DNA of 64,000 bases from Eunapius fragilis (lineage: Eukaryota > Porifera > Demospongiae > Spongillida > Spongillidae), in NCBI GenBank assembly GCA_963681505.1, contig OY811974.1:9798547-9862546 (forward strand), in the 5' to 3' direction. Positions 5,971-64,000 of the stretch are shown one piece after another. Numbering within the stretch: the stretch's first letter is position 1; the number at the start of each line of letters is the position of its first letter. Both the position numbers and the translations under genes were made by a program. The notes beneath the pieces are model-generated. The model did not search any database and was not told where the DNA came from. It saw only the letters and a list, made by a program, of their open reading frames with translations.

Positions 5971-7302
5971 TTAGTTCTCAGATAATAGCTCAATCTTTCT
6001 TCTTGCTACTTCAGCTGCTATTCTTCTTGGACGTGTGTGAGCAGGTTGAGGCTGTTCTAATCCAGCAATGTCATATTCATCCTTGTCTTCTAGTTGATAA
6101 GATTCCAAATAATACAGGTGCTGTATTGGCCTCGTCCAGACAGTAGAGCTATTTCTGCTTTTCACCCGAATAAATGCTCCCCTAATTTCTCCATCAGTAC
6201 CCTTTATCAACTTCTCAACCCTTGCAAGCCGCCAGAATGTTCTTGGGAGACTAGACTCATACACCAAAACAATATCTCCAATCGCAATCACCTTGTTCTG
6301 AGCTACTCTTGTGTTTGCATAACGATGCGTTTCCCTGAGCTCTAGCAAATACTCCATCCGCCATCGTCTCCAAAAGTTGTCCAGGACAGTCTTGAGATAC
6401 CTTGCTCTTTGTGAGAGTTGTTCAGTGGAGAGCTTTGGGTTGAATTCTGTGTCGTCTGAGCTTTCAGTAATATCGGGAAGATTACATATCCTTCTGCCAA
6501 TGATTAGATGTGATGGAGCTAATGGTTCCTCAATGTCTTCAGTGGAGATGTACGATATTGGCCTAGTGTTGAGGATTGCCTCTACCTCAATTATTGTGGT
6601 CAATAATTCATCCTGTGTTAGTACATCTCGTCCTACTATCTTCTTCAAACATTTCTTCATTAAACCAACCATCCGCTCAAATACACCTCCCCACCATGGA
6701 GCTCTTTCCAAATTATAGGTCCACTCAACACGATTTCCTGAAAAATACTTCTGCACCTCACTGGAGTTCATCACATCCTTGATAATCCGTCCAGCTGCCT
6801 TGAAAGTCTTCCCGTTGTCTGAAACAACCTTCTTGGGCAGCCCTCTATGAGCCACAAAACGCCTGAAACTCCGTAGGAAGGATTCTGTTGTCAAGTCCGG
6901 CACTAAGTCTAAATGGACAGCTCTGACGATGCAGCAAGTGTAAAGGCATACCCACACCTTTGCTGTGGTTCCCTTCACATAAAGCGGTCCAGCAAAATCA
7001 ACTCCAGTAAATGTGAAAGCAGGTGTTTCCTGTACCCTGAACTGTGGTAATGGTGGAGGAGGAGGAGCCTTGTAAGGTTTACTGTGAAACCTCTTACATA
7101 ATTTGCATTGCTGCAGACACTTTCTTACCAAACTCCTTCCCTTAATGATCCAATAACGTGCTCTAATCTCTGTAAGGGTGTCCTTCACACCACCATGAAA
7201 CACTCTTTCGTGACATTCCTGCACGATCAACAATGTGAGATAGTGCTTTCCATACAGCAGAACTGGATGTCTTGTATTCTCAGGAATATTAGCCTTTCCC
7301 AA
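5971..7302 (-). pseudogene. BEL/Pao integrase
   Basis: About 443 residues. It opens with an HHCC zinc-binding region (KHYLTLLIV, HERVFHGG, then CLQQCKLC), followed by the DDE core: first Asp in GVDFAGPL, second in VVSDNGKTF, and Glu in the WWGGVFERMVG segment. The C-terminal part has the SYISTEDIEEPLAPSHLIIG signature typical of BEL integrases. The frame connects badly to upstream sequence: a short frame at 7227-7418 (LVKDERFDNWHRQFDLF) carries the preceding conserved segment one frame away, so a frameshift lies near 7290-7310. It would catalyse element insertion. All catalytic residues are present, but the polyprotein is broken. Confidence 0.9.
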
Positions 7303-7419
7303 TCACCCTCTGCATCTCCAGAGCCTTGCTCATCCTTAAACAAGTCAAACTGCCGGTGCCAATTGTCGAACCGCTCATCCTTTACAAGCGCCTGCTGTAT
7401 TATTATAATCCAGTACACT

Positions 7420-8556
7420 TCAGCCCTGTTGATATCTAAATTGTTGATCGCACTTGGTTTTCAGAATTTCTATGAACTTCATTACCCAACCTGTGATCCG
7501 ATCTCTGTCATCACTGTTCGCAGAATACCATCTTGGAATGGAGATGAGTGGCACCCCTTCTAGTGAAACTACTAGCTCATTCCACTGTTTCAATGGTTCT
7601 CCAGTGAGAGGTTCATCCCAACCAATTTTTAATTGCCACAAACTCTGAGCCATCATTTTTAGTTGAACAGTAATGGGTGATATTATGCCCAATGGATCAT
7701 AGAACTTTGCCGCAATACTCACGACAGATCTCTTTGTGACATGTATCTTCTTGGCTAGATCAACGACAGGCATCACATTGAACAGAAGTTCATTCCTTGC
7801 AGTATCCCAGCAAACCCCAAGAATCCTTTTCTCGTAGTTGTCATCTTCCAATTTGCAGCCAAGCACATCCTTTGCATATGTGGCATCATCTTTCGTTATC
7901 TTGTGTTCACCATTAAGTGCAGGGCTCTTCAGATGTTTTTCTTCCTCTTCAATTCTAGCCTGTAGCTGAAAATCGTTGGATACGAATTTCCTGATGTTAA
8001 ATCCACCCTCCAAGAGCCTCTTCTTTGTCTTCAAATACAGCTGGAAAACATCTTCTATGTCATTCCCTCCATACGTCACATCATCCACATATATTGCACG
8101 AAGAAACCTGGCCACAAACTCTGGATCCTTGGTTTCATATTTTTTAATGTGGTGATCGAACGTTGCGTTGAGCAGAAATGGAATTGCAGACACACCAAAC
8201 ACAACTCTGGTTAATCTCAACACCAATAACTCTGGGAAATCCTTCTCGATGTTGTCCACCCACAAGAACCGCAATACATCTCTGTCTTCATTCCACACCG
8301 ACACAATTAGGAATGCTTTCTCAATGTCCCCAATCAGGGTAATTTTGTGGCATCTAAATCGAAGAATGATATCAAAAATATTTTGGTCAAATGTTGGTCC
8401 ACTGTAGAGGCACTCGTTCTGAGACGGTCCATCCTGTCGAGCGGAGGCATCATATACAACTCTCAGTTTCGTCGTCTGTTTGTCCTTTCTGATAAAAGGA
8501 TGATGATGTAGATAGTGAACTCGTTCTGCCTTGCTATTCCATTGGATCTGAAACAA
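7420..8556 (-). pseudogene. BEL/Pao reverse transcriptase (RNase H missing)
   Basis: About 378 residues with RT hallmarks: LRVVYDASARQ, the GDIEKAFL segment, VVFGVSAIPFLL, and the active site IYVDDVTYGG. The thumb/connection region (ILGVCWDTARNELLF, AKFYDPLGIISP) follows. The frame stops at WYSANSDDRD..., where an RNase H domain of some 200 or more residues should continue before integrase, so an internal deletion is likely. The N-terminal RT residues are in the neighbouring frame (8534-9739), implying a frameshift near 8540. Confidence 0.9.
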
Positions 8557-9739
8557 TTTCTACAATCCCCTTGCGAATCTGTTCCTGAATAACTGCGTCA
8601 TACTCTTTCAGTATTTGCGGGTCATTCCGTAAACGCTTCAACAGTCCAAGAAACCTTTTGTGACACAACTGTAGGTTGTCAGATTGCAGAAAACATGCTT
8701 CTTTCCATGGCAAGCGAACTTCATACCTGTTCTCCTTAAAGTGCACAGTTTCAAAAAACTTCTCATAAGGTGAAGACTCTTCATCCTTGACTCCTAATGT
8801 TTCAACTTCCCAAAACAACTTCACTTGCTTTTCAAGCTCACTTTCTTCAGTTCTCGTGGACACAGCTGCATTCAAAGTGTGAGTAACCAGGAGACTGCAG
8901 GCTGAAGATATTTCACTATGTGATCCAGAAATAGGTCCAGACAGTACCCATCCAAACTTCGTAAACAAAGCTGTAGGGCCATTACCAGTACTTCTTTTGA
9001 TTTTGTTTGTTACAAAACTCCAGTATAGATCAGCACCTAGAAGTATGTTGATCTCAAGAATATGATCGTCAGGTTGAGTAGGGTCAGCCAGTTCAAGTCC
9101 TGAGAGATAAGAGTACTGATCAGCAGCATATGTGACATGTTGTCCTGTCAATGGTTCACATATCATAGGCACCTCCAGTAGAACCACAGTGGTTTCCTTT
9201 CCATCCTTGAGCTTCATTTTAACCTTGACCACATCACAAGTCTGCATTTTCTCTGTCTCGGAACCAAAGGTCTTTATAAGCAAAGTCTCTTTCTGCTCTG
9301 TTTTCAATGAAAGTGCTTCCCTCAACCTCAACTTGTGGGATATATATGAACGCTGACTTCCGCTATCCAGTATTGCTCTGGTTACCATGGCTGGCTTGGC
9401 TATGTCTGGGTTGTAGACTAATACCCTTGCTGTCTGCAGGAGTACTGAGGTTTTAGCATTGACGTACATCGATACAACAGCAGTTTCACCCCCTTTGGTT
9501 GTCTGATTACATGGAGTTCGTGTGGGTTGTACCTGTTGTGCTGCACCCTGGTCTTTGTTGCAGATAGTTGTATGGTGTCTTCCTTGACACTTGGAGCATC
9601 TCATGGAGGATTGACAGATTTTGCTCAAATGATGTTTCCGCAAGCAGAGGAAGCATCTTCCTGCCTTGATCAGTATCTGCTTTCGATGACCCACATCTGT
9701 GACCTTCGGACAAACTTCCAATGCTGTGTGACTGTCCAC
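8534..9739 (-). pseudogene. BEL/Pao zinc knuckles, aspartic protease and RT N-terminus
   Basis: About 401 residues. Two CCHC-like knuckles come first (CFLCLRKHHLSKIC and CSKCQGRHHTTIC), then the protease with catalytic AILDSGSQRSYIS in a DUF1758/A16-type context, then the pre-RT segment ending in EQIRKGIVEIVSDP. It overlaps the gag frame above it and the RT frame below it, showing frame breaks at both borders. Ancestrally it was part of a single gag-pol polyprotein. Confidence 0.88.
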
Positions 9740-10018
9740 AAAAACAGCAGTTGATGGTAGAATCTCCAGTCAGTAGTGAAGATGCTGTTGGTACATCCTT
9801 CACAGGTTTCTTCCCTTGAAAGGTAGACATAGTGCTCACCGCTGCTCTTTCACGCGCATCCAATTCTTTTTGGAATATTTCCATCACCTTTGCCAAGTTC
9901 CATTCTTCATCAGTGATCTCCCTTGTTACCATCACTCTCAGTTCAAGTGGCAATCTGTTAAGTAGAACCGATGCCAAGAGGCTGCCATAGGAATCAGAGG
10001 ATATGCCCAAAGAACGTA
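9507..10018 (-). pseudogene. BEL/Pao gag C-terminal fragment
   Basis: Sequence reading RNLRSLGISSDSYGSLL followed by LPLELRVMVTRE matches the conserved segment of BEL gag (DUF1759-like). The frame is closed by a stop immediately upstream (TGA around 10022-10024), where homology ends, so the gag N-terminus is absent. The distal half overlaps the zinc-knuckle frame. Confidence 0.75.
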
Positions 10019-10192
10019 GATTTCGCGGATCTCAGGGTTTCCGCCAGCGCCACGCATTTGCGCCACGCACCACTAGACCTGTGGTTGACCATGTTGATAT
10101 ATTCATGGATTGACAGTGGCGGTGTTAACATACAGTCCATGCCTCGCACTAAGGGAAAATTAACACTTCGCACAAAGGGAAAATAAGGGCTA

Positions 10193-10360
10193 CAAGTAAT
10201 AAAAACATTCTCTACACTATAGGAATCAAAGGTGATGGTGGTGTAAAAAGCAAGGGAACAAGGCTTCTGATTGAAAAGGAAAAATGAAATAGACCTATAT
10301 TAGCACGCACATTTAAATATGACAACATGTTGCTAATGTAGGTCTATTTCATTTTTGTTT
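10193..10360 (-). mobile_element. 3'-end stump of the TC...CTTG Helitron-like family
   Basis: The sequence begins CAAGTAATAAAAACATTCTC and continues through about half of the family's terminal palindrome (compare 49553-49839). The base before CAAG is A, i.e. T after CTTG in element orientation, as in the other copies. The remaining half is lost at ~10350, where a Gypsy fragment starts. Confidence 0.75.
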
Positions 10361-10745
10361 GTTTTGGTGGTTGTGATTCAGCCTCTGCTGGGGCAGGCTT
10401 TAAACGGATAAAATGCACCACTTTCTGCCTCCTTGGGTTAGCACATTCCGCTATTCTGTACACAGTTGACCCTAACATTTCTACAACATGGAATGGCCCT
10501 TGCCATGGCTTGTGGAACTTTTTGGAGTATCCTCAACCAACTGCTTGATTGTGGAGAAATACCAACTCATTAACTGCATATGTCTTCCCTCTCACTCCTT
10601 TATCATAACACTCCTGTCGTTACTGCTGAATTTCCATGTATTGCAGGACTCATGCATGAGCTTGCTGCATCCTATTCTTCAGTACCTCAGCATATTGTGA
10701 CGGATCTTCAACTGCACCTGAATAGAGAAGAAATGGCCCATACAT
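10345..10745 (-). pseudogene. Gypsy integrase C-terminal tail fragment
   Basis: The minus strand reads HKPWQGPFHVVEMLGSTVYR, then VVHFIRLKPAP, typical of the end of Ty3/Gypsy integrases after the DDE core. In-frame stops occur (in the MQQAHA and AVG regions). No LTR can be assigned. 10746-11000 holds nothing I recognise. Confidence 0.7.
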
Positions 10746-14507: not shown

Positions 14508-15424
14508 TCAGGAACTACGATAGTAGTTCCTATATAGGAATTGACCCGGGTCGTGAATATCATTAAAAAAACGCCACCCGCGTATAACTCGCGTACCAAG
14601 AAACGGATAGTTTAGCTCTTTGTTCCTATCGAACCAGAAGGCAAAGACGGTCATTTTAATGTTTTGTTCCAGTTTTCAAACTGTTTCCTTTAAGAGAACA
14701 AAAAAGTTCGTGTTTTACCTCGTCCCCAGGCCAAATCTTCTCCGCCGTCGTCGTCGTCGTCTTCTAATTCTCGGGTGAGTATAACTCCTGATAGGAATGG
14801 TTTTAAAGAGCGCCAATTATACCAATCGCTTTAGAATCTCCTGGAAGGCCATCTTCAAGTATCAGATGTATGAATAAAGCATAAAACTGACATACGTAAT
14901 CATTACGTAATGCGTAGTGTTAAATAGAAGCGTTCCCATGGCGACATTTACGTATATTTAGAATTGTGCAAACAAAAGAGGAGAGCAGACGACGTGTTTG
15001 AATTCTCCCGCGTTCCTTACAGTGATCCCAAACAAAAACTCGTGACGGTAATTGAAGCGGAGGGCGGGGGGGAGGGGGGGGGGGGCACTTGCCAGTATTA
15101 ATAATCGATAAAAAATGATAATTAAAAAATAGAGGAAACAAGTAAAGAAAAACATTCTCTAACGAGAAAGTTGGTGGGATATAGGAATTGGAGGCAATGG
15201 TGGTGTAAAAAGGAGGGGAACAAGGTTTTGAGAAAAGGGTAAATGAGATAAAAATCCTATATTTAGCACATGTACATGCAACAACCAAAAGAAGTGCTAA
15301 ATATAGGATTTTTATCTCATTTACCCTTTTCTCAAAACCTTGTTCCCCTCCTTTTTACACCACCATTGCCTCCAATTCCTATATCCCACCAACTTTCTCG
15401 TTAGAGAATGTTTTTCTTTACTTG
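14508..15424 (+). mobile_element. Helitron-like non-autonomous element, copy A
   Basis: It starts TCAGGAACTACGATAGTAGT, a short 5' hairpin, followed by ATATAGGAATTGACC. A GTC/GTCGTC tract lies at ~14741-14763. It ends in a 286-bp palindrome (15139-15424) whose last bases are TTTACTTG. The left flanking base is A and the right is T; the Gypsy RT reading GLKEAPSTFQ resumes immediately after the right end. A near-identical copy in reverse lies at 52373-53307. There is no credible ORF. Confidence 0.8.
15139..15424. repeat. Terminal palindrome of copy A
   Basis: CAAGTAAAGAAAAACATTCT at the left pairs with AGAATGTTTTTCTTTACTTG at the right, with near-perfect arms of ~130 bp and a small loop around 15275-15290. 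Single strands would fold into a very long hairpin. Confidence 0.9.
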
Positions 15425-34121: not shown

Positions 34122-35176
34122 TCGAGAGTTACGTTAACTCTCATATAGGATTTGACCCCGATTATGAAGTCATTAAAAAAAACGCGACCCGCTTCTGTAT
34201 GGCTTACCTTATTGTCGTCATCGTAAGAAAGGCAACAATAAGCAGTTTCGTGTTTGTTTAATGTCACAAAACCGCGTGGTTGTAGAGAACAAAACTATTT
34301 TCTAAACTCGTACCCGGTCCCACGTATTTCTCGTTATTCTTCTTCTTGACCACGCATAACTCGGGATAGAAACATTTTAAAGAAATGAAAATGACACCAA
34401 TGGCTTCAGAATTTGTTGGCATTCTCGCTTCTGTGGTCAAAACGTCTCGAGGCTACATGACATATATCGGTGGTTGTGTTAGCAAATCACGTATGAAAAT
34501 TTCGCTAATAGCTTCTGAATAGGCTGGAAGAGCCGCTTTCATATAAAATAGCCGATGTTATGTTTGGTTAAACAATCAACTATACGGTACATCTAAGACA
34601 CATAATTAAATAACTTGTAAGACGTCAGACCCAAAATTAGAAACGGTCCGCTGAACGCGAGCGGTATCAAGAAGAGAAACGGTCCGCTTAAAGGCAACGT
34701 TCTTGGGAGAGTCCTGAACTGCTCGCTTGCGAGGAGAGTGCGGTACGGGAAGGCTAAGCGTACTAGTACCTGCAAAACCAAACGAGGCCATCGAAAGAGT
34801 ACTACCAATAAAGTTAGTCAAAGATATGTAAATGTAGCTAAGCTTGGTTTACAATATGACATAGGTGGCTGAACATTACGAATCAATTACGGATCAATTA
34901 CGACCATCAACTACATCAAATATGCATCGAAATAATGTGCATGAAAAAGAATGAACGAAACACTTAAATAAAAGCAAGGAAACAAGGGTTTGTAATAATA
35001 GTAAGGGAAAATGTCATAGTCCTATAATTAGAATATATGCTACAAACGTGCTAAATATGGGACTATGAGATTTTCTCTTACTATTACAGCCCATGTTTCC
35101 TTGCTTTTTACACCACCATTGCCTTCAAATCCTATATCCCACCATCTTTCTCATTGAGAAGGTTTTTATTTGCTTG
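34122..35176 (+). mobile_element. Helitron-like element, copy C
   Basis: It starts TCGAGAGTTACGTTAACTCT (a short hairpin), then CATATAGGATTTGACC. A short TTCTTCTTC tract lies near 34336. The core is CATAACTCGGGATAGAAAC, and the 3' palindrome is partly eroded, ending ATTTGCTTG. The flanking bases are A (34121) and T (35177). No ORF is credible. Confidence 0.75.
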
Positions 35177-35428: not shown

Positions 35429-35510
35429 CAAGTTAAGAAAACCATTCTCTAACGAGAAAGTGGGTGGGATATAGGAATTGGATGTGTAAAAAGGAAGAGA
35501 ACAAATGTAG
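35429..35510 (-). mobile_element. 3'-end stump of the Helitron-like family
   Basis: CAAGTTAAGAAAACCATTCT followed by AACGAGAAAGTGGGTGGGATA matches the outer arm of the terminal palindrome. The preceding base is A. The rest is lost. 35511-36020 has nothing I recognise. Confidence 0.65.
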
Positions 35511-38294: not shown

Positions 38295-38475
38295 CAAGTC
38301 TAACTAAAAATAATTTCTACAAGAAAGTTGGTGGTATATAGGATTTGAAGGCAATTGGTAGTGTAGAAAACAAGGAAACAAGGTCTTATCAGAAGAATAG
38401 TCCTATTTTGCACATTTCTAGCCACGTGTTGTTTGTGTGCTAAATATAGGACTAGGTACTTCAATAAATTGCGTT
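38295..38475 (-). mobile_element. Helitron-like 3'-end stump
   Basis: CAAGTCTAACTAAAAATAAT then AAAGTTGGTGGTATATAGG and a partial palindrome centred near 38425. The base before CAAG is A. Confidence 0.6.
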
Positions 38476-40250: not shown

Positions 40251-41115
40251 TCAGACTATGAATGTAATTAAAATCCCGCGACGCTACTGTAGCTTCGCTC
40301 CCGACGATCGGATCGTCTAACTTGTTGCGGCAATCGATCTGGAAGTCAAAACTGAGTAGTTTCGTTTTTGTTTCACGTCGTAGAACCGCGTGGTTGTCGG
40401 GAACGAAAAATACTGCTGTCCTCGTTCCCCTTCCAAAATATTGGGCGGGTCGTCTTCTGCTGCTTCTGCTTCTGCTTCTTGAGACTCATAACTCGGGACA
40501 TAAACACTTTTAAGCAATGAAAATTGCACCAATAGCTTTAGAATTTGCTGGAGGACTCGCTTTGATACACAAAAGCCTAAAAGCCTATATACGGTCTTAT
40601 CAAGTCTAATTAAGCAAAAGTACCTAGAAAATTTTCACAATACGTCTGGATTGAATTAAATCAGTTAAATGAAAAGGGGGGGGAACCTCGATGCAACAGG
40701 GATTTGGGTGTTAAAAAATTAAGGTTAGTGAAGTTGTTTTTATCAAAATGCCTTCACGTCAGAAAAAGGAACGAGTGAAATGACGTGCGAGATACCTTGA
40801 AGTTCGAGACGACGTTTTAGAATCGGCATACAAAAAAAAATCTATGAAGCAAGTAAATAAAAGATACAGGTTTTTCAGGCAAATAGTATACTGGTGTAAA
40901 AAGCAAGGAAACAAGTTTTATCAGAAGGGAAAAAGTAATAGTCCTATATTTTGCACAGAAACAGCATATGCCTTAGTCGAAGTGTGCTAAATATAGGACT
41001 ATTACATTTTCCCTTCTGATAAAACTTGTTTCCTTGCTTTTTACACCAGTATACTATTTGCCTGCAAAACCTATATCTCACCAACTTTCTCAGAGAGAAT
41101 GTTTTTATTTACTTG
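40251..41115 (+). mobile_element. Helitron-like element, copy E
   Basis: The start is eroded (no 5' hairpin). It has the family core CATAACTCGGGACATAAAC (40487-40505), a TTCTGC repeat tract at ~40455-40480, an ORF-start fragment at 40749-40830, and the full terminal palindrome at 40850-41115 ending TTTACTTG followed by T. The coiled-coil ORF resumes at 41116. Confidence 0.75.
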
Positions 41116-41360: not shown

Positions 41361-41663
41361 TTAACCTTGAAAAGTGTATATATCGTGTATTTATGCTATT
41401 ATGGCATCAATATCTTGAATACTTTCACGGGAACTGCATGGAGAAGTTAAGCGATCACAGTTTTTTTAAATCGCGGTCCATTGACATTGCGTACATTGTT
41501 AGTCAGTCACCTGTGACGCAATGTTTAATTGAAATGCTATAACTTTTTATTTAATTTGTTTATTTTATTTGCTTGGTTAGTCTATGTATAAAAGTTTAAG
41601 TTATATAAATTTTCAAAAATTTATTGAAGTACCTAATAGGACTATTAACTTCTAAGAAGACCT

Positions 41664-41782
41664 CACTGTAAAAATGGATGAGTGAATTTCACTCAAAACG
41701 GTTCAAAATAGCGCTCGTTTTCTCGAATCGAGTGCTATTTCGAACCGTTTTGAGTGAAATTCACCCATCCGTTTTTACAGTG
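41664..41782. mobile_element. 119-bp CACTGTAAAAA palindromic MITE
   Basis: The ends are CACTGTAAAAATGGATGAGT and ACCCATCCGTTTTTACAGTG, with long inner arms TGAATTTCACTCAAAACGG / CCGTTTTGAGTGAAATTCA. It is flanked by CT on both sides. It replaces most of a Helitron-like terminal palindrome whose right arm survives at 41783-41874. Confidence 0.88.
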
Positions 41783-41874
41783 CTTGTTTCCTTGCTTTTT
41801 ACACCACCATGGCCAATTGCCTTCAAATCCTATATACCACCAACTGTCTTGTATAGAATGTTTTTAGTTACTTG
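41783..41874 (+). mobile_element. Helitron-like 3'-end stump
   Basis: CTTGTTTCCTTGCTTTTTAC through TTTTTAGTTACTTG is the right arm of the terminal palindrome; the next base is T. Confidence 0.7.
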
Positions 41875-45385: not shown

Positions 45386-45811
45386 TCGGAACCTAAGCAA
45401 GTAGGTTCCATAGGAATCCTGCGGTATCATGAATGTAATTTTTTAAAAACGTCTAGCTGGACAACCCCAAGAATCGGGTCACTTTGCTCTTTGTGACAAT
45501 CGAGCGATATCTAAGAGGAGAACAGTTCTGCGTTGTGTCATAAAACTGTGTACCTTTATAGAACAAAAATATTTGTCCCCATCGTCCGTAGCCAATCCCA
45601 CCTAAAATTCGTCTTCTTCTTATTCTTCCTTCGGGATAGTATAACTCACGATAGGAACGTTCATAAAGCATGCCAAGTGTACCAATCACTTCAGGATGCG
45701 CCCGCAGGCTATCTTCAGGTGTCTGTTAATCGCCTAACTGATCGGGCAATTAGCTGAAGCGAGTAATACCTCATTTGGTGTTGATCTACAAATAGCACAT
45801 TACATCTGCTA

Positions 45812-47099
45812 AAAGAAATAAAAACATTCTTTACACGAGAAGGTTGGTGGTATATATAGGAATCAAAGGTGATGGTGTAAAAAAGCAATGTAACAAGACT
45901 TCTGATTGCAAAGGAAAAATGAAATAGACCTATATTAGCAAAATTATGTGTGTGCTAATATAGGTCTATTCCTTTTCAATCAGAAGCCTTGTTCCCTTGC
46001 TTTTTACATCACCATCACCTTTGATTCCTATATACCACCAACCTTCCCGTGTAGAGAATGTTTACTAGTTTCCTAAATTTTTCTGGTGGATTTTGTATTG
46101 TATGTAGTTCTTGAAACGTATAGAATCAACGTCAACTTGCGCGATCATGACAGGTTTATTTTCGAAATATTACACTAGTCCCCAGACTACCTCCATTGAG
46201 GACCAAAGGGTGATAAAGGTTAATAGCATGCAAAAGCTAAACTGATCTCACGCTATTATAAACCATGCACCGCAATACAGGGCCAAATTAATGTAACCAA
46301 CTTTGGCGTTATGCACACATTTCAAACAGCGCATACTAGTATAAAACGGAGAGAGACACAGTATATCTACCGCTGTAACTATTACAGAAACTATTCCTTC
46401 CATTTTAGCGATATACCATGCATGCTCATAATTTATCGACCCAGCATTTATCGATGCTGTAACGTACCTTTGGGTGGTCGTTTTGTTGGTCCATTCGGTA
46501 CCGCGCTTGACATAACTCGTTTGGCAGATGAGGTAGCATCTGGATCTTTCCACTTTTAGATGTTCGAGTGGAATCAGAATTGTCCTTCAGATTGCATGGT
46601 AAAACCATCGAATTTGATAACGCTGGTTATTTTATACCGGTGCGTCATGAACATTGTGATAGTTGACGTAATGTGCTATTTGTAGATCAACACCAAATAA
46701 GGTACTACTCGCTTCAGCTAATTGCCCGATCGGTTAGGCGTCTAACAGACACGTGAAGATAACATGCGGACACATCCTGAAGCGACTGGTACACATGGCG
46801 TGCTTTAAAAACTTCCTGTCGTGAGTTATGCTATCCCGAAGGAAGACGACGACGACGATGACGACGATGACGACGGAGGAGGAGAAATTTTAGGTGGGAC
46901 TGGGTACGAAGATGGGGACGAGTATCTTTTTTCTCTAAAAGTACACCGTCTTATGACATGGATACAATGCAGAACTGTTCCCTTTGATATCGCTTGATTG
47001 CCACTAAGAGCCGACTCTTGGCCGTCCCGCTAGAAATGAGAGTGACGTTTTTAATGACATTCATGATACTGCAGGAATCCTACATGGAACCTGTTCCGA
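45812..47099 (-). mobile_element. Helitron-like element, copy G, inserted in copy F
   Basis: In reverse it starts TCGGAACAGGTTCC, has the trinucleotide tract at ~46838-46875, a promoter/exon-like segment at ~46440-46560 and the terminal palindrome at 45812-46067 (end mutated to TTTCTTT). The flanks CTGCTA|TCACAATG reproduce the intact CAGCTATCACAATG of copy H at 48887-48900. Confidence 0.85.
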
Positions 47100-47329
47100 T
47101 CACAATGTTCATGACGCACCGGTAAAAAATAACCAGCATTATCAAATTCGATGGTTTTACCATACCAAAAATGTAATAGACCTATTTTAGCACATACAAA
47201 TATACATGTTGCTAATATAGGCATAGATAGTATAGTAAGGGGATTGGAAACGAGGCTAATCAAAACCGATTGACACCTCTACTCCTCGTTACAGCACTTA
47301 TAAGAATTCCTTCTGTGCCCGCGCAGCAC

Positions 47330-48165
47330 CAGAGATCATATATAGAGGGATTGGCAACAGGCCCACTTAACACTAATTAACGCGTGCCATCCGCACCTGA
47401 ATCCATAGAAATGGTACAATGCATTCCGATGTCACTGCTAACGGTATAGAAACAGGGAAGGCCAGCGGTGGCGGTAGAGGTAGAGCGGGAGTCAACGTTG
47501 GGGCGGTACAAAGATATTCAGAAACGGAGTAACAGAAACACTGACACTCTCGCGAGGAACAGACACGATTAGACACCGTCCGACGCGCTCTTCATTCTTC
47601 TGATGCTGCCCCAATCTAAATATTCTTTTTCGCATCCCCCTTCAAAAAAATACTTGCCGTGAACCAAACGCGTGGAGCACATAACAACACCTCAACAATA
47701 AATTATAACGAAAGAGCTACAAGCTAATGCCTTTTTACCACACTTATCTGCCCTGCTATGGCAAAACTGTCCCACAAGTTTTACATACCCAGTATGCTAT
47801 AGGGATCGCTACGAGGGCGCGTTGGACAAAGATCGTATACTTAAAAAACCAGCGGATGCCCAAGATACTGTCCCACAAAAAAACCACATTCGATTTTGAA
47901 AAATTTCTTCGAACTTACAGCAGTATAAAATCACGCGTAAAGCTTTAAATGCCCCTTTAAATGATTAAAAATACCTTTCGTTATAGCGCACTCGATAGCA
48001 GCTATTGAAAACTTCGTTGTAGCTTGGTTACAACAAGCAAGCGAATTTAGAGTCTTTTTCACACTTTTATACACGTGCGATTAACAACATATCGGGTGGC
48101 AGAAAAAATTGCGAATATCTATGGCTCACGTGACACGTTGCCAATCCCTCTATATATGATCTCTG
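47330..48165. mobile_element. 836-bp TIR transposon with 7-bp target duplication
   Basis: The ends CAGAGATCATATATAGAGGG / CCCTCTATATATGATCTCTG are identical over this length to those of 15507-16709. GCAGCAC is duplicated at 47323-47329 and 48166-48172. The interior differs from the 1.2-kb relative and shows no gene. Confidence 0.88.
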
Positions 48166-48991
48166 GCAGCACAGAAGGTACATTAATGGACTCCATATCC
48201 ACTCGAGGCGTATTTTGTGCGCGACACGTATCATAAAAGCAGCCAAGTACATACGAATAGGACTAACCAACAGCAAAACATGACAAACTGATCAATACGC
48301 ACAACTGCCCGCGCACAGAAAGTACACAAGTTAATGGACTCCATCCCCACTCGAGGCGTATTTTGTGCTTAGCACGTATCGAAAAAGGACGAAAAAAAGG
48401 AGCCAGATACATCGGAACCTACGCGAGTAGGTTCCATATAGGAATCCTGCAGTATCATGAATGTCATTAAAAAAACGTCACTCGCGTCTAGCGGGACAGC
48501 CAAGAGTCGGGTCACTTCGCTTTTAGTGGCAATCGAGCAATATCAAAAAGGAGAACAGTTCTGCGTTATACATATGTCATAAGACGGTGTACTTTTTGAG
48601 AACAAAAATACTCGTCCCCATCGTCCGTACCCAGTCCCACCTAAAATTTCTCCTCCGTCGTCGTCTTCTTCTTCTTCTTCTTCTTCTTCTTCTTCTTCTT
48701 CTTCTTCCTTCCGGAGAGTATAACTCACGACAGGAACGTTTGTAAAGCACGCCATGTGTACCAATCGCTTCAGGATGTGTCCGCATGTTATCTTCAGGTA
48801 TCTGTTAGACGCCTAACCGATCGGGCAATTGGCTGAAGCGAGTAGTACCTTATTTGGTGTTGATCTACAAATAGCACATTACATCAGCTATCACAATGTT
48901 CATGACGCACCAGTATAATATAACCAGCGTTATCAAATTCGATGGTTTTACCATATAATCTCATGAGGACAATTCTGATTCCACTCGAGCA

Positions 48992-48999
48992 TATAAAAG
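48992..48999 (+). promoter_or_regulatory. TATA box in copy H
   Basis: TATAAAAG, 41 bases before the ATG at 49040. The corresponding sequence in copy B (CATCTAAAAGTGG, reverse strand near 32600) is degenerate. Confidence 0.45.
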
Positions 49000-49039
49000 T
49001 GGAAAGATCCAGATGCTGCCAGATCTGCCAAACGTGCGT

Positions 49040-49085
49040 ATGTCAAGCGCGGTACCGAAAGGAACAACAAAACGACCACCCAAAG
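49040..49085 (+). CDS. Possible first coding exon carried by copy H
   Basis: The ATG opens MSSAVPKGTTKRPPK and the frame meets a donor AAAG|GTACGT. Copy G has the same arrangement in reverse (MSSAVPNGPTKRPPK, then GGTACGTTAC). Conservation of start, frame and donor in two copies suggests either the element's own first exon or a captured host 5' exon. Function is unknown. Confidence 0.4.
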
Positions 49086-50305
49086 GTACGTTTATACGGC
49101 ATCGATAAATGTTGGATCGATAAATTATAAGCATGCATATGGTATATCGCTAAAATGGAAGGAATAGTTTAGTTACAGCGGTAGAGATACTGCGTCTCTC
49201 CGTTTTACAGTAATATGCGCTGTTTGAAATGTGTGTATATAACGCCAAAGTTGCTTACGTCAATTTGGTCATGTATTGTGGTGCATGGTTTATCTGATTA
49301 TAGCGTGAGATCAGTTTACTTAGAGTGCATTTATTCTTTGTATTATATGGCTTCGTTTTTAACCTTTATCAATCCTTTGCTCCTCAATGGAGATAGTCTG
49401 GGGACTAGTGTAATATTTGGTACACACCTCAACAGAATTGCAGATTCTAATATAAACCTGTCATGATCGCGCAAGTTGACGTTTATGCTACCTTATTCTA
49501 TGCGTTTCAAGAACTAAGTACAATACCAAATGCACCAGAAAAATTTAGGAAACAAGTAATAAAAACATTCTCTACACGAGAAGGTTGGTGGTATATAGGA
49601 ATCAAAGGTGAGATGGTGGTGTAAAAAGCAAGGGAACAAGGCTTCTGATTGAAAAGGAAAAATGAAATAGACCTATATTAGCACGCACATTAAAATATGA
49701 CAACATGCTGCTAATATAGGTCTATTTCATTTTTCCTTTTCAATCAGAAGCCTTGTTCCCTTGCTTTTTACACCACCATCTCACCTTTGATTCCTATATA
49801 CCACCAACCTTCTCGTGTAGAGAATGTTTTTATTACTTGTACAAATAGGATTAACCAACAATAAAACACGACAAACTGATCAATACCCACGACAGCCCGC
49901 GCACAGAAGGTACATAAGTGCGATGCGTCCAGAATAAACAAAAAATTCAATTTTCGACCTTGCCCGTCATATTTTCCCCTCCTAAAACGCTTACAGATAT
50001 TCTCCTATGCATGTGAAACGCTTCAGAACAGGTAACAAGACACCAAAACCAACCGAACTAACGATGTGAACAATTTCGAACCTCTCTGTAGGTGTTAACG
50101 ATGTAACGCAACGATGTAACGCGGAGTGCCCACAGCCAGTGATGCGCTCACGTTACTCGTTTCCAATCCCCTTACTATACTATCTATGATATAGGTCTAT
50201 TTCATTTTTCCTTTTTAATCAGAAGCCTTGCTCCCTTGCTTTTTATACACCAACCTGGGATTCCTATTTACCACCAAACTTCAGAATGCATGTTTTTATT
50301 ACTTG

Positions 50306-52372: not shown

Positions 52373-53033
52373 CAAGTAAAGAAAAACATTCTCTAACGAG
52401 AAAGTTGGTGGGATATAGGTGTTGGAGGCAATTATGGTGTAAAAAGGAAGGGAACAAGATTTTGAGAAAAGGGTAATGAGACAAAAATCCTATATTTAGC
52501 ACTTCTTTTGCTTCTGTTACATTTACACGTGCTAAATATAGGATTTTTGTCTCATTACCCTTTTCTCAAAATCTTGTTCCCTTCCTTTTTACACCACCAT
52601 TGCCTCCAATTCCTATATCCCACCAACTTTCTCATAAGAGAATGTTTTTCTTTACTTGTTTCCTCTATTTTTTATTATCATTTTTATCGATTATTAAGAC
52701 TGGCAAGTGCCCCACCCCCCAACCCCCCCCCCCCCCCCCCCTCCGCTTCAATTACCGTCACGAGCAGACGCCCGCTTTTGTTTGGGATCACTGTAAGGAA
52801 CGCGGGAAAATTCTAACACGTCGTTTCGTTGTTTAGCTTTCCTCTTTGTTTGCACAATTCAACATAAATGTCGCCATGGGAACGCTTCACTACGCATTAC
52901 GTAATGATTACGTATGTCAGTTTTATGCATACATCTGATACTTGAAGATGTCCTTCCAGGAGATTCTAAAGCGATTGGTATAATTGGTACCTCTATAAAA
53001 CCATTCCTATCTGGAGTTATACTCACCCGAGAA

Positions 53034-53071
<38 letters not shown>

Positions 53072-53307
53072 AGAAGATTTGGCCTGGGGACGAGGTAAAA
53101 CACGAACTTTTTTTGTTCTCTTAAAGCAGACAGTTCGAAGACAGGAATAAAACATTAAAATGACCTTCTTTGCCTTCTGGTTCGATAGCAACAAAGAGCA
53201 ACACTGTCCGTTTCTTGGTACGCGAGTTATACGCGCGGCGCGTTTTTAAAAATGATATTCACGACCTGGGTCAATTCCTATATAGGAATTACTATCGTAG
53301 TTCCTGA
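52373..53307 (-). mobile_element. Helitron-like element, copy A' (reverse)
   Basis: A near-copy of 14508-15424 in the opposite direction: the 5' end is TCAGGAACTACGATAGTAAT on the minus strand, with a GAC/GTC tract at 53030-53071 and a terminal palindrome at 52373-52658. The flanks in element orientation are A at the start and T after CTTG. A C-run at 52705-52741 parallels the G-run at 15060-15085 in copy A. Confidence 0.85.
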
Positions 53308-55936: not shown

Positions 55937-56019
55937 CTGTACCAGTGGGGGTGGAGCCATTTGATGTTACAGGATAAGAGGAATCAATACACCTGCATGT
56001 TCATACATGAAGCCACACT

Positions 56020-57185
56020 GTGTGGTGAGAGCTACACTGTGTGGTGATAGCTACACTGTGTGGTGAGTGATAGCTACACTGTGTGGTGCTAGCTATACTG
56101 TGTGGTGATAGCTACACTGTGTGGTGGTAGCTACACTGTGTGGTGATAGCTACACTATGTGGTGGTAGCTACACTGTGTGGTGGTAGCTACACTGTGTGG
56201 TGACAGCTACACTGTGTGGTGGTAGCTACACTGTGTGGTGGTAGCTACACTGTGTGGTGGTAGCTACACTGTGTGGTGGTAGATACACTGTGTGGTGATA
56301 GCTACACTGTGTGGTGGTAGCTACACTGTGTGGTGATAGCTACACTGTGTGGTGGTAGCTACACTGTGTGGTGGTAGCTACACTGTGTGGTGATAGCTAC
56401 ACTATGTGGTGGTAGCTACACTGTGTGGTGGTAGCTACACTGTGTGGTGACAGCTACACTGTGTGGTGGTAGCTACACTGTGTGGTGGTAGCTACACTGT
56501 GTGGTGATAGCTACACTGTGTGGTGGTAGCTACACTGTGTGGTGGTAGCTACACTGTGTAGTGATAGCTACACTGTGTGGTGTGTGATAGCTACACTGTG
56601 TGGTGGTAGCTACACTGTGTGGTGATAGCTACACTGTGGTGATAGCCACACTGTGTGGTGATAGCTACACTGTGGTGATAGCTACACTGTGTGGTGATAG
56701 CTACACTGTGTGGTGACAGCTACACTGTGTGGTGACAGCTACACTGTGTGGTGATAGCTACACTGTGTGGTGGTAGCTACACTGTGTGGTGATAGATACA
56801 CTGTGTGGTGATAGATACACTGTGTGGTGGTAGCTAAACTGTGTGGTGGTAGCTACACTGTGTGGTGATAGATACACTGTGTGGTGATAGCTACACTGTG
56901 TGGTGATAGCTACACTGTGTGGTGATAGCTACACTGTGTGGTGGTAGCTACACTGTGTGGTGGTAGCTACACTGTGTGGTGATAGATACACTGTGTGGTG
57001 ATAGCTTCACTGTGTGGTGATAGCTACACTGTGTGGTGATAGCTGCACTGTGTGGTGACAGCTACACTGTGTGATGGTAGCTACACTGTGTGGTGATAGC
57101 TACACTGTGTGGTGACAGCTATACTGTGTGGTGATAGCTACACTGTGTGGTGATAGCTACACTGTGTGGTGGTAGCTACATTGTG
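56020..57185. repeat. 19-bp minisatellite, about 60 units
   Basis: The unit is GATAGCTACACTGTGTGGT with frequent GGTAGC and GACAGC variants and a few shortened units (ACACTGTGGTGATAGC). It sits in the intron between the two POC5-like exons. Confidence 0.95.
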
Positions 57186-61495: not shown

Positions 61496-63945
61496 TTGGC
61501 GGCCAAATTCTTGGCATCTTGCCCCAAGATCTTTCCTCAAGATCTTGCTTTCTTGCCCCTAGATCTTGGCCACGATCTTGCCTCCTTGCCCCTAGATCTT
61601 GTCTCCTTGCCCCTAGATCTTGGCCATGATCTTGCCTCCTTGCCCCTAGATCTTGGCCACGATCTTGCCTCCTTGCCCCTAGATCTCAGCCATGATCTTG
61701 CCTCCTTGCCCCTAGATCTTGGCCACGATCTTGCCTCCTTGCCCCTAGATCTTGTCTCCTTGCCCCTAGATCTTGGCCATGATCTTGCCTCCTTGCCCCT
61801 AGATCTTGGCCACGATCTTGCCTCCTTGCCCCTAGATCTCAGCCATGATCTTGCCTCCTTGGCCCTAGATCTTGGCCATGATCTTGCCTCCTTGCCCCTA
61901 GATCTCGGCCATGATCTTGCCTCCTTGCCCCTAGATCTTGGCCATGATCTTGCCTCCTTGGCCCTAGATCTTGGCCACGATCTTGCCTCCTTGCCCCTAG
62001 ATCTTGGCCATGATCTTGCCTCCTTGCCCCTAGATCTTGTCTCCTTGCCCCTAGATCTTGGCCATGATCTTGCCTCCTTGCCCCTAGATCTTGTCTCCTT
62101 GCCCCTAGATCTTGGCCATGATCTTGCCTCCTTGCCCCTAGATCTTGTCTCCTTGCCCCTAGATCTTGGCCATGATCTTGCCTCCTTGCCCCTAGATCTT
62201 GTCTCCTTGCCCCTAGATCTTGGCCATGATCTTGCCTCCTTGCCCCTAGATCTTGTCTCCTTGCCCCTAGATCTTGGCCATGATCTTGCCTCCTTGCCCC
62301 TAGATCTTGGCCACGATCTTGCCTCCTTGCCCCTAGATCTCAGCCATGATCTTGCCTCCTTGGCCCTAGATCTTGGCCATGATCTTGCCTCCTTGCCCCT
62401 AGATCTCGGCCATGATCTTGCTTCCTTGCCCCTAGATCTTGGCCATGATCTTGCCTCCTTGCCCCTAGATCTTGGCCACGATCTTGCCTCCTTGCCCCTA
62501 GATCTTGGCCATGATCTTGCCTCCTTGCCCCTAGATCTTGTCTCCTTGCCCCTAGATCTTGGCCATGATCTTGCCTCCTTGCCCCTAGATCTTGGCCACG
62601 ATCTTGCCTCCTTGCCCCTAGATCTCAGCCATGATCTTGCCTCCTTGGCCCTAGATCTTGGCCACGATCTTGCCTCCTTGCCCCTAGATCTTGGCCATGA
62701 TCTTGCCTCCTTGCCCCTAGATCTTGGCCATGATCTTGCCTCCTTGCCCCTAGATCTTGGCCATGATCTTGCCTCCTTGGCCCTAGATCTTGGCCATGAT
62801 CTTGCCTCCTTGCCCCTAGATCTTGGCCATGATCTTGCCTCCTTGCCCTAGATCTTGGCCACGATCTTGCCTCCTTGCCCCTAGATCTTGGCCACGATCT
62901 TGCCTCCTTGCCCCTAGATCTTGGCCACGATCTTGCCTCCTTGCCCTAGATCTTGGCCATGATCTTGCCTCCTTGCCCCTAGATCTTGGCCACGATCTTG
63001 CCTCCTTGCCCCTAGATCTTGGCCACGATCTTGCCTCCTTGCCCCTAGATCTTGGTCATGATCTTGCCTCCTTGCCCTAGATCTTGGCCATGATCTTGCC
63101 TCCTTGGCCCTAGATCTTGGCCACGATCTTGCTTCCTTGCCCCTAGATCTTGGCCATGATCTTGCCTCCTTGCCCTAGATCTTGGCCATGATCTTGCCTC
63201 CTTGCCCCTAGATCTTGGCCATGATCTTGCCTCCTTGCCCCTAGATCTTGGCCATGATCTTGCCTCCTTGCCCCTAGATCTTGGCCATGATCTTGCCTCC
63301 TTGGCCCTAGATCTTGGCCATGATCTTGCCTCCTTGCCCCTAGATCTTGCCTCCTTGCCCCTAGATCTTGGCCATGATCTTGCCTCCTTGCCCTAGATCT
63401 TGGCCACGATCTTGCCTCCTTGCCCCTAGATCTTGGCCATGATCTTGCCTCCTTGGCCCTAGATCTTGGCCATGATCTTGCCTCCATGCCCTAGATCTTG
63501 GCCACGATCTTGCCTCCTTGCCCCTAGATCTTGGCCATGATCTTGCCTCCTTGGCCCTAGATCTTGGCCATGATCTTGCCTGCTTTCCCCTAGATCTTGG
63601 CCATGATCTTGCCTCCTTACCCCTAGATCTTGGCCATGATCTTGCCTGCTTTCCCCTAGATCTTGGCCATGATCTTGCCTCCTTGGCCCTAGATCTTGGC
63701 CATGATCTTGCCTCCTTGCCCCTAGATCTTGGCCATGATCTTGCCTCCTTGCCCCTAGACATTGGCCACGATCTTGCCTCCTTGCCCCTAGATCTTGGCC
63801 ATGATCTTGCCTCCTTGCCCCTAGATCTTGGCCATGATCTTGCCTGCTTTCCCCTAGATCTTGGCCATGATCTTGCCTCCTTGGCCCTAGATCTTGGCCA
63901 TGATCTTGCCTCCTTGCCCTAGATCTTGGCCAAGATCGTGCCTCC
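61496..63945. repeat. 33-bp (and 21-bp) minisatellite, ~75 units
   Basis: The unit is ATCTTGGCCATGATCTTGCC plus TCCTTGCCCCTAG (33 bp). A 21-bp short form (ATCTTGTCTCCTTGCCCC plus TAG) recurs, chiefly before 62560. Variants are CACGATC, CTCAGCC and TTGGCCC. Both unit sizes are multiples of three, so frames stay open: a 451-codon plus frame (61496-62851, DLGHDLASLPL repeats) and minus frames of RSWPRSRGKEA. After 62830 occasional 32-bp units break the frame. No start context or similarity supports a protein. Confidence 0.95.
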
Positions 63946-64000
63946 TTTTGGCCAGTGAAGTGGTATATGATGGGGGTGGGGGGAGGGGCAGTGCTATAGC

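Follow-up and report, generated by a model that had tools for sequence, protein, structure and literature searches.

The CTTG family in the window

The window, which is the whole stretch of 64,000 nucleotides from Eunapius fragilis analysed here, harbours a repeat family whose members start with TC and usually end in CTTG. Six copies with both ends and five additional 3' ends were located, together with the terminal structures of the copy at 48412:

48412-49839, plus strand: e48412-type copy, a non-autonomous Helitron (TC...CTTG, A|T insertion), judged by its ends and flanks and its origin from an autonomous element by colinear deletion
48414-48435, plus strand: 5' terminal hairpin of the 48412 copy, 9-bp stem, 4-nt loop, -9.0 kcal/mol (0 of 200 shuffles as stable)
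49553-49839, plus strand: 3' terminal palindrome of the 48412 copy with arms of about 130 bp and CTTG end, seen by self-complementarity and folding
49810-49824, plus strand: small subterminal hairpin of Helitron type, TTCTC-GTGTA-GAGAA, within the 3' arm, 15 nt from the 3' end
45386-50305, plus strand: older outer family member without the internal palindrome arm, interrupted by the 45812 and 48412 copies
45812-47099, minus strand: family member with decayed palindrome and mutated 3' end CTTT; empty site located
14508-15424, plus strand: e14508-type family member, arms 131 bp, 100% complementary
34122-35176, plus strand: family member in which a part of the palindrome has been deleted
52373-53307, minus strand: e14508-type family member, arms 130 bp, about 95% complementary (6 mismatches)
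10193-10356, minus strand: truncated family 3' end
35429-35504, minus strand: truncated family 3' end
38295-38422, minus strand: truncated family 3' end
40833-41115, plus strand: family 3' end with decayed palindrome
41775-41874, plus strand: truncated family 3' end

The six copies had been described in an earlier note made from the letters of this DNA, and all of the coordinates given there hold. In each copy an A precedes and a T follows the element, the TC start is followed by a TAGG segment, and the CTTG end has the one mutated exception that had been noticed, the CTTT of the 45812 copy. The five additional 3' ends (10193, 35429, 38295, 41115 and 41874) are likewise all followed by T. The short 5' hairpin that had been ascribed to all six copies was confirmed in the three that were folded (9-bp stem at 48412 and 14508, 8-bp stem at 34122) and is visibly shortened in the 45812 copy. 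However, the long terminal palindrome is intact in the copies at 14508, 48412 and 52373 but not in the other three.

The palindrome of about 285 bp that had been reported for the 48412 copy was found at 49553-49839. Its arms measure 132 bp if one flanking base per side is counted, and the strand 49552-49839 folds at -160 kcal/mol, compared with -23.5 kcal/mol (standard deviation 3.3) for 200 shuffles. Arm complementarity of the intact palindromes is 100% at 14508, 99.3% at 48412 and 95.4% at 52373. The small subterminal 3' hairpin has a 5-bp stem, is 13-15 nt long and lies 15-16 nt from the end, beside the 16-20 nt and the distance of about 11 nt that are characteristic of canonical Helitrons; taken alone it is weak (z -1.3 to -3.9 in three copies). 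The 34122 copy is devoid of a part of the internal arm, a gap that is specific to this copy because 13 of 14 near-full relatives sharing its last base show a near-full inverted arm match, the remaining one having a fragment. In the outer element at 45386-50305, a repeat that is also found elsewhere sits ahead of the 3' arm. Moreover, a second, unlike palindrome (CACTGTAAAAATGG... inverted) is present within 41545-41874, upstream of the truncated 3' end at 41874.

Insertion sites across the genome

The search was extended to the genome, comprising 219 Mb in 24 contigs. The exact pattern of the 5' end, TCGGAACCTAC-loop-GTAGGTTCC, is preceded by A in 570 of 584 cases and by another base in 14. 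The exact 3' end is followed by T in 845 of 879 cases and by another base in 34; of the 845 T-flanked ends, 305 carry the mark TTTCCT of the internal arm, and when internal-arm copies are subtracted, T follows CTTG in about 540 of 574 external ends, with possibly a few internal arms with changed flanks left in both classes. The reversed-pattern controls gave 0 in all five genome-wide end counts, and the pattern of ends and flanks is far beyond chance. There are at least 39 full-length matches to 48412-49839, including the 48412 copy itself, among the best 40 of 2,485 candidates scored.

The flanks were A|T in all 31 copies with both ends located, i.e. the six in the window and 25 of 27 fetched genome loci; L043_2119, for which the pattern had picked an internal arm end, is left out of this tally, and so are L056 and L057, which have the last one or two bases altered and A as the 5' flank in both. 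Joining the flanks into queries revealed a spanning site for 5 of 31 valid queries, three of them clear and two weak. For locus L043, the 240-bp joined flank is contiguous at 100% identity in 14 sequences, and contiguous empty sites were also found for the 45812 copy of the window (about 91% over 185 bp) and for L042 (about 89% over 240 bp). The weak matches concern the copies at 45386 (81%, small gaps) and 48412 (gapped, in a nearby repeat). At the three clear empty sites, neither a duplication nor a loss occurred at A|T. Thus, the insertion between A and T without duplication, which the earlier note had read from the window, is borne out by the 31 flanks, the genome-wide end counts and the three clear empty sites, and the genome-wide tabulation that had been proposed there gave neither target duplications nor random flanking bases.

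Autonomous elements with the same ends

A genome search with the Helitron Rep domain gave 91 matches. The best-scoring group (best PF14214 matches; L059-L062 were read) is a canonical Helitron, an example of which occupies L060:2214-8851 (6,638 bp, TCTAATTC...hairpin...CTAG, A|T). The Rep-bearing ORF of this element matches Helraiser with 906 bits over about 920 residues, and the CTAG family (L059-L062) is close to this bat element and has a GTACGTAC-rich 5' end. One of the CTAG copies has landed in an arm of a CTTG-family palindrome. The resident canonical Helitron was considered as partner of the CTTG family and rejected, its ends TCTAAT...CTAG|T being unrelated.

Roughly 80 matches score lower, some of them being pieces of one gene. 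Three loci of this group were read end to end, and all three carry the family ends on complete elements, each A|TC...CTTG|T:

C1:1774145-1784665: autonomous partner, 10,521 bp, 1977 aa
C2:13898179-13910107: autonomous partner, 11,929 bp, 1995 aa
C9:6657091-6666524: autonomous partner, 9,434 bp, 1976 aa

Helitron_like_N, PIF1 and Pif1_2B domains were recognised in the long ORF of the partners (about 1,980 aa), and OTU was matched weakly, over the cut-off in two of the three proteins. A domain scan, which also covered two further partner ORFs, found no endonuclease domain in the three Rep/Hel proteins. The Rep of the first partner, the one of the three proteins that was checked, matches Helraiser with an E-value of 1e-6 and has the HxH and Y-x3-Y residues in place. 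Positions 1-550 and 1031-1428 of the e48412 element match positions 1-518 and 10146-10521 of the first partner at 85-88%, and by this alignment the window element is a colinear deletion derivative of the first partner from which the gene is missing.

The earlier note had proposed to look for an autonomous Rep/Helicase member between the same ends and had named a partner with a DDE transposase among the outcomes that would speak against its reading. Three complete elements of the former kind were found, and the three partners that were read carry Rep/helicase and no DDE transposase. The long inverted repeat could also be that of a DNA transposon of the foldback or MITE type that relies on a DDE transposase; however, the repeat is present at one end only, the target is not duplicated and the partners with the same ends encode Rep and helicase, so that we regard such an origin as extremely improbable.

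All three autonomous elements have one or two lysine/arginine-rich tandem-repeat ORFs upstream of Rep/Hel (L063:1080-1724, L064:792-1830 and L065:1376-2059), with a unit of about 15 residues, e.g. ESYKANPEKKKASVR. A Pfam scan of two of these ORFs gave no match for L063 and only a sub-threshold match for L065. Family ends also occur near the Rep genes in L028-L031 and L035. The Rep domain is not enclosed by them, as they are placed downstream of it or outside it and in short ORFs; they are read as putative insertions.

Relationship to known Helitrons

The CTTG family belongs to the Helitron superfamily because a Rep/Helicase partner lies between the same ends and there are no duplications, no random flanks and, in the three partners read, no DDE transposase. 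Indeed, an HUH-type Rep with two tyrosines is fused to a PIF1-type helicase and target site duplications are absent, as is characteristic of this superfamily. With canonical Helitrons the family shares the A|T site and the 5' TC, but its 3' end is CTTG instead of CTRR, and its protein is not close to that of Helraiser. It could be argued that this is an ordinary canonical (Helitron1) family with nothing unusual about it, in line with the TC start, the A|T insertion and the small subterminal hairpin. Yet the partner Rep/Hel protein reaches 90 bits against Helraiser, whereas the Rep-bearing ORF of the resident canonical Helitron reaches 906, and the ends of the latter, TCTAAT...CTAG, are unrelated to those of the CTTG family, which makes this explanation very unlikely. 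Assignment to the Helentrons is contradicted by the A|T instead of T|T insertion and by Rep/Hel proteins that are not fused to an AP endonuclease.

The closest published type, by description, is the proto-Helentron of Phytophthora infestans, for which a Rep/Hel without endonuclease, Helitron-style ends and A|T insertion without duplication are described (PMC4067079); the CTTG family agrees with this description and is set beside the proto-Helentron on that basis, with differing exact end letters. The proto-Helentron is about 14 kb in size, compared with 9.4-11.9 kb here, and has a 5' TT, a 3' CTAG and a SET-domain ORF, and the section devoted to it does not mention a giant palindrome (PMC4067079), whereas the CTTG family has TC...CTTG ends, an OTU-like domain within the Rep/Hel ORF and a palindrome of about 285 bp. 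Helraiser is described with the same TC start, A|T insertion, 3' hairpin terminator and HUH Rep plus helicase, and with a palindrome of 19 bp located 11 nt from CTAG (PMC4778049); the corresponding hairpin of the CTTG family has a 5-bp stem, lies 15-16 nt from the end and is embedded in arms of about 130 bp, and the family also differs by its 5' hairpin and its distant protein. HELPO2 of Pleurotus ostreatus shares the CTTG end, and for both Pleurotus families A|T insertion, a subterminal hairpin and Rep/Hel are reported; the passages on HELPO2 do not mention a long palindrome (PMC4289320). Hairpins at both ends are reported for Helitron2/FoHeli and OTU protease ORFs for Helentrons, but these elements are set apart by terminal inverted repeats that are asymmetric, by target sites that are T-rich or TT, or by an AP endonuclease (PMC5148889; PMC4067079).

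The suggestion that the family is an undescribed rolling-circle variant therefore stands in part. It is a member of the Helitron superfamily with an unusual giant 3' palindrome, but the CTTG end makes no new type because CTTG ends have been reported for HELPO2 (PMC4289320) and for maize Helitrons (PMC4778049). In the published descriptions, there are precedents for hairpins at both ends, for A|T insertion and for an endonuclease-free divergent Rep/Hel, each taken separately. A Helitron with so long a palindrome was not found among the matches listed in the open-licence literature, judged by their titles, the openings of their abstracts and text passages. What was not encountered in print is thus the terminal palindrome, whose arms measure about 130 bp, and the way in which it behaves. 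Moreover, the family may extend the endonuclease-free, A|T-inserting Rep/Hel type reported from an oomycete to an animal-like genome.

Concerted evolution of the palindrome arms

The arms of the palindrome evolve in concert. In the three autonomous copies, which were not picked for arm identity, the arms are 128-131 bp long and show 0, 0 and 1 mismatches to their own partner arm. Between these copies, however, the 3' arms differ at 29/125, 40/120 and 47/124 ungapped columns (23-38%), and the same change is present in both arms at 29/29, 40/41 and 47/48 variable columns. If the arms of one ancient palindrome had evolved independently, the chance of a 29/29 coincidence of the same base would be about 1e-42. 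In a maximum-likelihood tree of 16 arms from eight elements, the two arms of an element pair with each other in seven of eight cases, with support of 100, 100 and 85 for the autonomous copies; the exception is e48412, for which a nearly identical copy in the tree keeps the two arms from pairing. The copy at 52373, with its six arm mismatches, mirrors 3/9 and 3/10 differences to its near relatives 14508 and n61, as expected from decay of an older copy after insertion, and adds no support.

One subfamily was analysed at the level of single variants. The set comprises 55 of 68 copies; of 40 palindrome regions collected, 9 that could not be oriented were left out, some of which do have palindromes, and 4 more were left out as having none. 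Arm identity in this set is biased upward because the 26 copies of the e48412 type were taken from the top of the full-length matches (from the best 40 of 2,485 candidates scored), 22 of the 40 fetched regions were selected for having both arm ends intact, and the segmental duplicates L070/L071 and L074/L075 are included. Of 70 private variants, 66 are in one arm and 4 in both. By contrast, of 20 copies with the commonest substitution 19 have it in both arms, and of 23 copies with a 2-bp indel 22-23 do; as the copies that have a two-arm variant in common are relatives, these counts represent few, non-independent events. Among the 21 variants seen in at least two copies, 12 are confined to one arm (two of these occur in the segmental duplicates L070/L071), 4 are always in both arms and 5 are mixed. 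The most economical interpretation is that changes start in one arm after insertion and, in spreading lineages, end up in both. The youth of the donor alone cannot explain the two-arm changes because each difference between lineages arose first in one arm.

Natural selection for a stable terminator hairpin might keep the arms identical with no copying between them, and pairing may indeed matter, given that the 3' hairpin of Helraiser is described as a terminator (PMC4778049). Selection may contribute to arm identity; as the sole cause it is unlikely, since in a stem of this length selection should let some mismatches pass, whereas arms of about 130 bp have 0, 0 and 1 mismatch in autonomous copies that differ at 23-38% of arm positions, and even the 2-bp indel is mirrored within the subfamily.

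All of 33 intact palindromes examined have the junction GAAA|CAAG next to the internal arm, which suggests that the same palindrome is refreshed and not made anew; among the copies added later, several (L080, L090 and L098-L100) have a changed flank. There are also copies with damaged palindromes, in which the damage may predate or postdate insertion. In L065, the sequence outside the internal arm end (CTTG|TTTCCTTGCTTTTT) resembles the stretch inside the arm after the inner CTTG, and beside the internal arm in L062 the outside sequence likewise resembles the in-arm stretch past the inner CTTG; judged from the letters, an earlier 3' end may have been read through.

The inverted CTTG|T site exactly at the internal arm boundary (33/33) and the combination of a terminal palindrome with an HUH nickase would also suit a parvovirus-like rolling-hairpin step, in which the 3' end uses the internal arm for self-priming and the palindrome is restored in each round by hairpin transfer. 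Parvovirus hairpin transfer should invert the loop in about half of the copies. Among 59 sequences, however, the central loop has one orientation in 54, many of which are closely related, and is inverted in 2 (3 unscorable), and the palindrome is confined to one end of the element; hairpin transfer of this kind is thus highly improbable. Inverted loops are rare; they were seen in L088 and L101 and in addition in the window 3' end at 10193, and suggest an occasional flip of the hairpin.

A model for mobilisation and arm correction

We favour, with a probability of about 0.82, the reading that the window copies are non-autonomous Helitrons and that a resident, proto-Helentron-like Rep-helicase-OTU lineage with the same ends mobilises them in trans, and we infer a correction of the arms in addition. 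Given the shared ends and the origin by deletion, mobilisation in trans would be the natural explanation. Rep would nick at A|TC, the PIF1-type helicase would peel off one strand, strand transfer would end where it meets the 3' hairpin and CTTG|T. The released strand would insert between A and T. The Helitron 3' terminator would have expanded to a palindrome whose arms, about 130 bp in length, in the single-stranded (or replicating) intermediate could fold into a duplex, whereupon mismatches would be corrected or copied from arm to arm. Spreading lineages would thus carry changes in both arms and settled copies would then gather one-arm mutations.

The specific idea of a self-correcting giant-hairpin terminator, in which in each round of movement one arm of the folded single strand rewrites the other, is tentative, and we give it slightly less than even odds. 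The hairpin-templated correction would take place in the single-stranded stage, and the step itself may consist in mismatch repair acting on the folded strand, in a template switch within the palindrome or in gene conversion of a donor locus. If the idea is correct, one-arm and two-arm mutations would form a genomic record of the changes before and after each transposition. To our knowledge, the role of the Helitron 3' hairpin and the single-stranded passage are known mainly from one rebuilt bat element. With several hundred copies (A precedes 570 exact 5' ends), three complete partners and co-evolving arms, the family provides evidence from nature that the single strand passes through a folded stage, and a near-perfect hairpin of about 130 bp with arms kept identical points to a copying or repair step during movement.

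Other sequences in the window

Domain matches in the window were of the fn3, HECT and Pao types, which suggest an animal genome. Remains of a Pao-type LTR retrotransposon with integrase zinc-binding, Pao peptidase and DUF1758 domains lie on the minus strand at 5971-9769, and tandem arrays with 19-bp and 33/66-bp units are located at 56011-57185 and 61595-63947.
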